Assembly: GCF_013359775.1 (NCBI RefSeq)
Contig: NZ_JABMCI010000068.1
Span: 62,001-126,000, forward strand
Origin: Cellulomonas humilata
Lineage (GTDB): Bacteria > Actinomycetota > Actinomycetes > Actinomycetales > Cellulomonadaceae
Reading direction: 5' to 3'
Length of the DNA: 64,000 bases
Shown: positions 37,574 through 42,369 of the stretch, piece by piece
Layout of the letters: every line of letters begins with the position of its first letter
How positions within the stretch are numbered: the first letter of the stretch is position 1
Program-made: the position numbers and the translations under genes
Notes under the pieces: model-generated
Told to the model about the DNA's origin: nothing
Seen by the model: the letters and a program-made list of their open reading frames with translations, nothing else
Database searches by the model: none

Positions 37574-38578
37574 TCAGCTGTCCGCGGCGAGGGACCCGTC
37601 GCTCGAGAGCACGAGGCCGATCGCGGCCTCACCCTGACGCACGGCCTGGCCGATCAGGCCGAAGTCGTACGACTTGAAGTCCGCGAACTCGATCCCGTAC
37701 GTCTCCTCGAGGCCCAGCTGGCAGAACGGGCGCTCGGGGCACTCGGCCGGACCGGCCAGCACGAGCCCGCCGCAGTTCTCGGCGAGGTCGGACAGGGTGG
37801 TCAGGTCGTGCTCGGTGGCGAACTCGCTGGTCACGGCGAACGCGTTCTGGTCCTGCGCCGTGGACGGGGCACCGACGACCAGGCCGGCGGCGTCCGCGAG
37901 CGGGGTCAGCGCCGTCACGGTCTCGTCGACGTCGGCGGAGGCCACGGACTCGGCGTCGGCACCGTTCTGCTGCGCGTTGAGGAAGTCCGCGAGTGTCGCC
38001 GCGTACTCCGGGACGGCCGTGAGCGTGCCGTCGGTCAGCGCAGGCAGGTACGTCTCCCGGTTGCCGATGGTGCGCACCTCGACCGTGTAGCCCGCGGTGC
38101 GCAGGACCGCCGCGTAGATCTCCGCCAGCGTCGCGCTCTCGGAGAAGTTCGCCGCACCGATCACCAGCGACGCACCGGCACCCGACGGCTCCGCGGCGGC
38201 AAGGCCCTCGGTGTCCACGAACTCCTCGGCCACCTCGCTCGAGGTGCGGCGGTCGATGTCGACGGCCTTGTTGAGCTCGATGAGCTTGTCCGTGTCGAGC
38301 GCGGCGGACACGGTGTCCAGCAGCTCGATCACCGACGCGTTCGCGGCGGCAGCGGCCTTGTTCACGGCCGGGATGATGTTGTCGGCGTTCTGGAGGCCCT
38401 TGTCGTCCTCCAGGACGACGAGCTTCTCGCCGGCGACCGGGTCGCACGTGGCGAGCCCGGACGAGCCGGAGGACGTCGGGTCGGCCTCGCCTCCGCCCGA
38501 GCCCGGGCTGCCACAGGCGCCGAGCGCCAGGGCGGCGACGGCGATCAGGGTCAGGGTGGTGGAGCGTCTCGCTCGCAT
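37574..38578 (-). CDS. Opu/ProX-type osmolyte-binding lipoprotein with apparently permuted domain order
   Basis: A 334-residue lipoprotein, lipobox LGAC with Cys22. Residues 52-126 (LVVLEDDKGLQNADNIIP, LLDTVSAALDTDKL, AEEFVDTEGL) match what is normally the C-terminal part of OpuAC/ProX proteins. Residues 138-334 (LVIGAANFSESATLAEIYAA, GNRETYLPALTDG, VPEYAATLADFL, ending GLVLSSDGSLAADS) match the normal N-terminal and middle parts. In canonical members the SSDG-like block leads straight into LVVLEDD, so the order here is circularly permuted. It is encoded downstream of two permease genes on the same strand. Expected ligands are glycine betaine, choline or related solutes. Confidence 0.88.
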   Translation of the reverse strand: MRARRSTTLTLIAVAALALGACGSPGSGGGEADPTSSGSSGLATCDPVAGEKLVVLEDDKGLQNADNIIPAVNKAAAAANASVIELLDTVSAALDTDKLIELNKAVDIDRRTSSEVAEEFVDTEGLAAAEPSGAGASLVIGAANFSESATLAEIYAAVLRTAGYTVEVRTIGNRETYLPALTDGTLTAVPEYAATLADFLNAQQNGADAESVASADVDETVTALTPLADAAGLVVGAPSTAQDQNAFAVTSEFATEHDLTTLSDLAENCGGLVLAGPAECPERPFCQLGLEETYGIEFADFKSYDFGLIGQAVRQGEAAIGLVLSSDGSLAADS

Positions 38579-40104: not shown

Positions 40105-40169
40105 GCGGCGAACGTACCGGGGGCCTGTGACATGCGCAGTCTGACCCTGCGGGTGTCGGACCGGGCGAC

Positions 40170-40175
40170 TAGCGT
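40170..40175 (+). promoter_or_regulatory. -10 box (TAGCGT), leaderless type, for the osmolyte ATPase
   Basis: TAGCGT ends 7 nt before GTG 40183, within the 78-bp divergent region shared with the permease genes. Confidence 0.55.
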
Positions 40176-40182
40176 CCTGGGG

Positions 40183-41226
40183 GTGGCAGACGACCCGGCG
40201 ATCGCCTTCGAGCACGTGAGCAAGTCGTACGCGTCCGACCGCGGACGCGGGGAGTCCGGCGCGGCGGTCGACGACCTGTCCCTGGCGGTCCGGCCGCACG
40301 AGGTGCTCGTCCTCGTCGGCCCGTCCGGCTGCGGCAAGTCCACGACCCTGCGCATGGCCAACCGTCTGGTCGAGCCCACGTCCGGTCGGATCATGCTGGA
40401 GGGCGAGGACGTCACCACGGTCGATCCCGTGGGCCTGCGGCGGCGCATGGGCTACGTGATCCAGAACGTGGGGCTCTTCCCGCACCGCACGGTCGCCCAG
40501 AACGTCGCGACGGTGCCCGGCCTCGTCGGCTGGGACCGCAAGCGGACGGCCGCGCGGGTCGAGGAGCTGCTCGACCTGGTGGGCCTCGACCCGGACCGGT
40601 ACGCCCGCCGCTTCCCGCACGAGCTCTCCGGCGGCGAGCGGCAGCGCGTCGGCGTCGCCCGCGCCCTGGCCACGGACCCCCCGGTGCTGCTCATGGACGA
40701 GCCGTTCGGTGCGGTGGACCCGGTGGGCCGGCGTCGGCTCCAGAACGAGTTCGCCCGCATCCAGCGCACGCTGGGCATCACGGTGATGCTGGTCACGCAC
40801 GACATCGACGAGGCGGTGCGGATGGCGGACCGCGTGGCGGTGCTGAGCACCGGCGCGCACATCGAGCAGCTGGCCTCCCCGCTCGACATCGTCGCCCGCC
40901 CGGCGACTCCGGCGGTGGCGGACCTCGTCGGCCGCGGCCGGACCGCCCGCCTGCTCGCGCTCGGTCGCCTGGAGCTCGCTGACCTGGACCCCGTCGACGA
41001 CGCCGCGCGCGGTGCGTCCCTCGCGGTCGGTGTCGAGCTGGGCGACGTGCTCGACGCCCTCGTCGGCGTGGACGGGCCCCTGCCGGTGCAGGACGAGCGC
41101 GGCCTCGTCGTCGGCAGCGCCACGGCCGCCACCGTCGTGCGCGCCCTGGACCGGCTCACGGAGCGGGCAGAGGAGACGGACGCCACAGCAGACGCGGACG
41201 CGGCCGTCGGTACGCTGCGCAGGTGA
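40183..41226 (+). CDS. Osmolyte ABC transporter ATP-binding protein (OpuA/ProV-like)
   Basis: A 347-residue ATPase. Walker A is GPSGCGKST, the Q-loop region GYVIQNVGLFPHRTVAQNV, signature LSGGERQRVGVARAL, Walker B VLLMDEPFGAVD and the H-loop VTHDIDEAVR. QNVGLFPH is typical of the glycine betaine/proline subfamily. A C-terminal region after about residue 240 resembles a reduced CBS-like regulatory tail (ending GSATAATVVRALDRL). It energises the permeases encoded divergently. Confidence 0.93.
   Translation: MADDPAIAFEHVSKSYASDRGRGESGAAVDDLSLAVRPHEVLVLVGPSGCGKSTTLRMANRLVEPTSGRIMLEGEDVTTVDPVGLRRRMGYVIQNVGLFPHRTVAQNVATVPGLVGWDRKRTAARVEELLDLVGLDPDRYARRFPHELSGGERQRVGVARALATDPPVLLMDEPFGAVDPVGRRRLQNEFARIQRTLGITVMLVTHDIDEAVRMADRVAVLSTGAHIEQLASPLDIVARPATPAVADLVGRGRTARLLALGRLELADLDPVDDAARGASLAVGVELGDVLDALVGVDGPLPVQDERGLVVGSATAATVVRALDRLTERAEETDATADADAAVGTLRR
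41211..41216 (+). promoter_or_regulatory. -10 box (TACGCT), leaderless type, inside the ATPase gene end
   Basis: TACGCT ends 6 nt before GTG 41223, although that GTG also overlaps the ATPase stop. The ATP-grasp gene could thus be read both by coupling and from its own leaderless mRNA. Confidence 0.4.
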
Positions 41227-42241: not shown

Positions 42242-42315
42242 GGTGGCTATAGCTCAGGTGGTAGAGCACCTGGTTGTGGTCCAGGGGGTCGCGGGTTCAA
42301 GTCCCGTTAGCCACC
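42242..42315 (+). tRNA. tRNA-His (anticodon GTG)
   Basis: A cloverleaf with acceptor GTGGCTA/TAGCCAC, anticodon stem CCTGG/CCAGG, loop TTGTGGT and T arm CGGG-TTCAAGT-CCCG. The extra G at -1 (42242) pairs with discriminator C (42315), the histidine identity feature. CCA is encoded at 42316-42318, unlike the other three tRNAs here. Confidence 0.96.
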
Positions 42316-42369
42316 CCATCGCGTCGGGCGTCGACCATCTGGTCGGCGCCCGTCGCCGTTCCCGGGGTT

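Follow-up and report, generated by a model that had tools for sequence, protein, structure and literature searches.

Does the binding-protein gene in the window, the whole 64,000-nucleotide stretch of Cellulomonas humilata DNA that was analysed, encode a chain whose ends have been moved around the fold, and, if so, how often have such rearrangements occurred among its relatives? The original prediction had read the gene product as an apparent circular permutant of an OpuAC/ProX-type protein, and the residues that it quoted, including the lipobox (Cys22), are present in the translated open reading frame (ORF; Table 1), in which the signal peptide ends LGA-Cys22. Segments are named by the residues of the window protein, with N1, N2 and C denoting residues 137-268, 270-332 and 44-126, respectively.

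Table 1. Binding-protein gene, parts of its product and neighbouring importer genes, in window coordinates
Feature	Coordinates	Strand	Size or basis
Gene of the substrate-binding lipoprotein with the permuted chain	37574..38578	-	334 aa + stop
Lipoprotein signal peptide, residues 1-21	38516..38578	-	Read from the translation; lipobox regex
Cys22, predicted lipid-anchored residue	38513..38515	-	Inferred from the lipobox motif
Gly/Ser-rich flexible linker, residues 23-43	38450..38512	-	pLDDT <50 over protein 22-39 (AF2 model residues 1-18)
Segment C, residues 44-126, equivalent to the C-terminal end of unpermuted relatives	38201..38449	-	OsmF 199-281, AfProX 200-274, HMM 187-268
New linker joining the old C- and N-termini, residues 127-136	38171..38200	-	
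Segments N1 and N2, residues 137-332, equivalent to the N-terminal and middle regions in unpermuted relatives	37583..38170	-	Pfam OpuAC 2-184, HMM 1-193
Cys45, new N-terminus, invariant in type A	38444..38446	-	69/69 distinct type-A proteins
Cys269, in a loop of lobe II, candidate for a disulfide with Cys45	37772..37774	-	69/69 type A
ABC permease P2	38652..39428	-	Pfam BPD_transp_1 1.1e-18
ABC permease P1	39430..40104	-	Pfam BPD_transp_1 7.3e-16
ABC ATPase, divergently transcribed, start codon uncertain	40132..41226	+	Pfam ABC_tran 2.6e-35

Chain order of the window protein

Against Pfam PF04069 (OpuAC), the protein scored 126.9 bits (curated cut-off 21.2) in two stretches, the best of which aligned residues 137-331 with positions 2-184 of the 257-position profile (E 1.4e-36). 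Residues 44-126 matched positions 199-281 of the 283-position NCBIfam OsmF profile, which are its last positions; the score against the OsmF equivalog NF049931 was 76.8 bits, for a cut-off of 400. A phmmer comparison with PDB sequences gave the swapped order, in two stretches, in all five alignments listed (1sw1, 1sw2, 3mam, 5teu and 4nd9), and for A. fulgidus ProX (AfProX, 1sw1) window residues 136-318 aligned with 6-184 and 52-127 with 200-274. We also built an HMM free of permuted sequences from 78 unpermuted rows and doubled the same alignment to obtain a tandem HMM. With the unpermuted-only HMM, the window protein was again matched in two stretches, 187-268 followed by 1-193, residues 45-126 being aligned at 187-268, so that Pfam, NCBIfam, phmmer and HMM searches all departed from the canonical linear order of the PF04069 profile in the same way. 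The tandem HMM covered the window protein in one continuous wrap (187-461, 305 bits), a check that the original prediction had proposed, and it also matched a type-B protein (125-394) and a type-C protein (155-425) in one stretch each; an unpermuted control stayed at 2-268.

The AF2 model of the window protein, made with 23 aligned sequences, had a pLDDT of 86.4 and a pTM of 0.79. Foldseek and VIA-align are linear aligners, which match only about two thirds of the model, and it matched known folds in two overlapping linear parts, C with N1 (OpuAC) and N1 with N2 (OpuBC and YehZ). The top VIA-align match was OpuAC 2b4l (model 17-246 on 5-272, Z 16.6, 4.4 Å, 197 residues); 3chg_D aligned over model 25-246 on 63-272 and 3o66 over model 113-313 on 31-230 (192 residues, 2.0 Å), the F-III proteins aligning over about model 113-313. 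A type-B AF2 model made from two sequences had a pLDDT of 33.8.

Two linear readings of the protein have to be weighed against a rotation. Truncation, frameshift or mis-assembly could mimic one, and the chain does end at SSDGSLAADS, past which its relatives continue, but the order is conserved in independent genomes across the bacterial family and beyond, which rules out these artefacts, and a lipobox precedes the rotated body in 68 of the 69 type-A proteins (those with the window's order). No further C-segment was seen by eye in three reading frames over 200 bases downstream of the stop, and the one-wrap match of the tandem HMM also counts against an artefact, to which we assign a negligible probability. 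Just as little credence is due to the idea that residues 44-126 are a foreign domain placed at the N-terminus of an OpuAC protein that had been shortened: the best Pfam stretch does span 137-331 only, but this segment is homologous to the end of OsmF, AfProX and the HMM (Table 1), which rules out such a fusion, and the C and N1 part of the AF2 model aligns linearly with OpuAC. The start of the N-terminal piece lies near residue 44, a minor correction to the 52 given in the original prediction. The window protein is thus a predicted OpuAC-fold ABC-importer binding protein with a circularly permuted chain, its new ends lying between ...SSDGSLA and KLVVLEDD. That the chain is rotated and neither truncated nor frameshifted, as originally proposed, is borne out by the tandem-HMM wrap, the order shared by close and distant homologues, the unpermuted relatives and the AF2 model.

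Distribution, cut sites and importer context

A survey of close homologues, also suggested at the outset, found the window's order conserved across its bacterial family and beyond. The closest named protein, from Cellulomonas sp. Root930, is 98% identical, and in its own genome the window protein is the only match at E ≤ 0.001. In the bacterial family, 195 of 221 genomes gave a match at E ≤ 1e-10, and 155 of 221, counted from the listed matches with its own genome included, did so at E ≤ 1e-80. The family matches listed, down to 1.1e-99, were single matches in the window's order that started at or before residue 15 and ended at or after residue 330; 12 of the family rows listed carry one in-frame TGA, and in the one inspected (L154, genome G166) the rotated body is open. 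Matches were found in 72 of 347 genomes sampled from the taxonomic order (E ≤ 1e-30), 219 of 394 from the class (E ≤ 1e-20) and 132 of 396 from the phylum (E ≤ 1e-15), at full length in some lineages and over about 130-332 only in others. Among named genomes, Cellulomonas, Actinoplanes/Amorphoplanes, Modestobacter and two MAGs have the window's order; the chain is unpermuted in Streptomycetaceae, a Frankiaceae MAG, Nocardioides and Aquihabitans.

Four chain orders were found in Actinomycetota: the canonical N1-N2-C, type A (C-N1-N2, as in the window), type B (N2-C-N1) and type C (N2b-C-N1-N2a), a third order being first met in two Actinomycetota MAGs. Among 256 ORFs (L001-L254), 156 were linear and 100 permuted according to a mixed HMM, with which the unpermuted-only HMM agreed; most of 20 regions had been chosen as permuted-looking or to cover type-A families, so that permuted fractions are not frequencies, and loci from the family search and the named-genome search partly duplicate the same genomes. 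From the remaining rows, 100 further regions gave 103 linear ORFs and no permuted one, and L255-L304 comprised 41 linear and nine permuted ORFs, all nine from genomes already in the set. Without one ORF of fewer than 215 HMM positions, and with 14 duplicates merged, the 256 ORFs came down to 241: 155 canonical, 69 type-A, 15 type-B and two type-C proteins, which thinning by identity reduced to 106 tree rows. When 198 genomes of the class of G1239 were searched with the type-C protein, 27 matched, and the 28 loci fetched included no third type-C genome. Permuted and unpermuted relatives are up to 71% identical after reordering, and genomes G922 (C109 and C116) and G946 (C75 and C7) each hold a type-B permuted protein and an unpermuted relative.

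Two further loci are recorded here as observations. L148 (G283) is a diverged type-A protein (42% identity) that has lost the Cys280/Cys286 pair and kept Cys45/Cys269. On a Mycobacterium ulcerans plasmid (NZ_CP083743.1, 36074-36914), a gene annotated as a glycine betaine ABC transporter substrate-binding protein gave match coordinates (P0002 42-270 in one piece within P0003 51-323) that, as coordinates only, fit N2-C-N1 (type B).

The C-terminal stretch of the permuted proteins ended only at HMM positions 125-127 (17 ORFs), 157-158 (4) and 190-193 (79). Passages of PMC9732360 place EgtUC residues N339, Y341 and Y443 in interdomain linkers, and by our own mapping these correspond, through a constant offset, to AfProX D109, Y111 and Y214 and to window residues 243, 245 and 66. 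Because they fall between the two hinge strands located via these linker residues, all three cut sites are in the predicted lobe II, which makes up about a third of the chain. Each of them directly precedes a strand in the AF2 model of the window protein. The lipobox regex was also positive for 10 of 15 type-B, both type-C and 146 of 155 canonical proteins.

Type A carries an invariant pair of cysteines (Table 1; an alignment count that includes L148), of which Cys45 directly precedes the new first strand, whereas Cys269 lies in the loop before LVLAG. Both cysteines together occur in none of the 155 canonical proteins; column 269 is a cysteine in one of these (two have one within three columns), and five others have one in the dozen columns before KLVVLEDD. 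A Cys45-Cys269 disulfide probably holds the new N-terminus to lobe II, making up for the covalent link that the cut removed.

The binding-protein gene adjoins genes for two permeases and an ATPase, the neighbourhood of an ABC importer. ATPase, P1, P2 and substrate-binding protein (SBP) genes stand together in 14 of the 25 loci viewed, permuted and unpermuted alike, and most of the others are incomplete stretches; L094 has an ATPase but no permease in the stretch examined, and L095 has the SBP alone. The ATPase gene is divergent from the permease and SBP genes in the window, L048, L053, L057, L058 and L076, and co-directional in seven type-B loci and the unpermuted L165 and L169, as it is with the SBP gene in the type-A L094. 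A tRNA-His (gtg) gene lies near the operon at window 42243-42318.

In PMC10087775, the aromatic cage of AfProX consists of Y63, Y111, Y190 and Y214, and EgtUC is also given such a cage in PMC9732360. In the window protein, Y63 is kept (Y192), Y111 is N245 and Y214 is D66; Y190 was left unaligned by phmmer, its guessed window column being L325. Because only one of the three alignable cage tyrosines is kept, betaine binding is doubtful, and with the cage mostly missing an osmolyte was not adopted as ligand. At the positions equivalent to AfProX Y63, D109, Y111, R149 and Y214, all arrangements mostly carry Y, D, N, R and D/E, apart from some exceptions, and the pocket is therefore not visibly changed by rotation. 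Judged from its genes, the transporter is a putative OpuC/OsmF-type importer for a small solute.

Number and origin of the rearrangements

Because the PDB relatives aligned, which come from outside Actinomycetota, have the canonical order, we read this order as ancestral. Seven arrangement changes were counted on a careful tree of 84 rows and eight on a quick tree of 106 rows, both unrooted. On the 106-row tree, the AU test, whose p values are optimistic because the groups were defined after viewing the quick tree, rejected a single clade holding the 15 B rows (268.6 log-likelihood units, p 3.3e-6), L140 grouped with the other 11 B rows (98.5 units, p 0.0023), L145-147 grouped with these 11 rows (183.2 units, p 9.9e-10) and L140 grouped with L145-147 (129.4 units, p 2.2e-6), and did not reject a shared origin of the 11 main B rows (p 0.142) or of all A rows (p 0.443). 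Because these last two single origins were not rejected, the minimum is five changes (three B, one A and one C), not seven or eight, and on these trees the arrangement has changed at least five times in the Actinomycetota family, at three lobe II sites. L094 was dropped as a separate type-A event in view of the p value of 0.443 and its cysteine pair.

L145-147 are 58-61% identical to unpermuted proteins, compared with 45-47% to other permuted lineages. When N1, N2 and C were compared separately, against an unpermuted pool (155) that is larger than the permuted pool and somewhat favours an unpermuted nearest protein, all nine rows of three B lineages (L145-147, L140 and the L074 group) had as their closest match in each segment an unpermuted protein and not a member of another B or C lineage. 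Both C rows were likewise nearest to an unpermuted protein in each segment, and among the other six B rows (L137, L138, L139, L141, L143 and L144; N2 left out for L141) this held in all three segments for L137 only.

Could each arrangement have arisen once, the scatter of type B reflecting tree error or recombination of permuted with unpermuted genes? The cut site is common to all B lineages (HMM 125-127), the 11 main B rows are compatible with one origin, and for some segments of these rows the closest protein is another B row. Against this stand the cost of an all-B clade and the pairwise rejection of the three B groups, and recombination would need to fake the unpermuted-nearest result segment by segment in N1, N2 and C of three B lineages; we regard single origins as improbable and proceed with repeated rearrangement.

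With high confidence in the account as a whole, we explain the window protein as the binding protein of an OpuC/OsmF-type importer, permuted in a family that has rearranged repeatedly, with a probable stabilising disulfide and a likely route through duplication. The sequences themselves show the rotation, its conservation, the operon, the cysteine pair and more than one origin; the disulfide, the effect on the anchor, the duplication route and transport are inferred. The old termini, both in lobe I, are joined via the 10-residue linker, and the new termini are placed in a loop of lobe II directly ahead of strand LVVLEDD, which returns to lobe I. With signal peptide and lipid anchor kept at the 5′ end, the anchor would lead into lobe II instead of lobe I, and the protein would most likely retain ordinary clamshell action, capturing a small solute between its lobes and delivering it to the P1/P2/ATPase importer. 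Most likely the gene body was duplicated in tandem and fused behind a single signal peptide, the redundant ends then being lost. Such duplication and trimming would fit the similar lengths of the linker after the lipid anchor (median 21 in canonical, 22.5 in type-A and 22 in type-B proteins; the type-C values of -7 and 20 are unreliable, the HMM having run into the signal peptide in one) and the short, often Gly/Ser-rich joint between the old ends. A duplicated intermediate was not seen, none of the 256 ORFs exceeding one copy. Neighbouring unpermuted SBP genes on one strand occur at L183 (1970-2764 and 2883-3674) and L248 (2798-3610 and 4000-4785), a layout that could give rise to a fused duplicate; on the tree, the copies of each pair do not group as sisters.

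Whether the rotations brought any advantage is a separate matter. We lean, by little more than an even chance, towards permutations being neutral accidents in which anchor position and cysteine pair confer no benefit, and place this slightly ahead of a selected relocation of the anchor. Rotation would be tolerated owing to the long lipid linker and to the location of both old termini in lobe I; the pocket residues, operon and linker lengths of types A and B resemble those of unpermuted proteins, and both kinds coexist in G922 and G946. Two observations speak against neutrality, neither being decisive: the type-A cysteine pair never varies, and all three sites are confined to about a third of the chain, lobe II. 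Doubtful in our view is the fuller proposal of at least five permutations at three strand-starting lobe II loops, with the OpuAC cut reused convergently, rotation selected as a way to shift the anchor to lobe II from lobe I and, in the window's lineage, a new disulfide giving stability in place of the broken peptide connection.

Comparison with known binding proteins

The unpermuted lipoproteins L095, L057 and L058 (Streptomyces) resemble the window protein in pocket residues and lipobox, with 51-53% identity after reordering, and L057 and L058 also have the same operon; unpermuted actinobacterial OpuAC-family lipoproteins differ in their N1-N2-C order and in lacking the Cys45/Cys269 pair. AfProX, B. 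subtilis OpuBC and OpuCC, EgtUC and OsmF/YehZ (subcluster F-III) have fold and sequence family in common with the window protein, but the order is canonical in the five PDB alignments listed, and the AfProX/EgtUC cage is mostly missing in the window. M. tuberculosis ProX (MtProX), which we liken to the window protein by description and not by sequence or chain order, is reported in PMC5894108 to have no such cage; its reported ligands are polyphenols, whereas betaine, choline and carnitine are not bound.

B. subtilis OpuAC (2b4l) is, like the window protein, a circular permutant among glycine-betaine-binding proteins, but it is distant in sequence (no phmmer match at E ≤ 1) and has its cut at the N1/N2 boundary, that of the window protein lying between N2 and C. 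It has reportedly been described as having a 'domain dislocation'. The VIA-align ranges put OpuAC as N2-C-N1, which on the model appears to be the order of type B; type B would therefore re-create the topology of a more distant subfamily. The type-B loci have this order, and the window protein (C-N1-N2) does not. Treponema pallidum TpMglB-2 (Tp0684, 'type Ic') is likewise a circularly permuted lipoprotein binding protein, but with a type I/cluster B fold, from another family and with another cut; it was reported as a sugar-binding protein in 2016, and its authors suggest a link between permutation and membrane tethering (PMC4990184). The caution that permutation has precedent among binding proteins was thus well placed, since PMC2395249 had already reported it in 2008 for the glycine-betaine-binding proteins 2b4l, 1r9l and 1sw1, and TpMglB-2 (PMC4990184) adds another case. 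The repeated permutation of the family lay beyond what the original prediction could see.

Among the matches listed from the open-licence PMC literature, we found no report of permuted actinobacterial OpuAC-family proteins. To our knowledge, natural circular permutations are mostly isolated, ancient cases. A single family with permuted and unpermuted relatives, several events and recurring cut sites opens a rare rearrangement to comparative study, which could ask which of the loops can accommodate new ends, whether rotation is favoured by tethering to the membrane and what stabilises a newly made end. Because a linear profile matches rotated proteins only in pieces, family alignments may also mix rotated chains. 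Permuted binding proteins as such are already known; what is surprising in this family is that they recur, that the cuts lie in lobe II and that a cysteine pair goes with one arrangement only.
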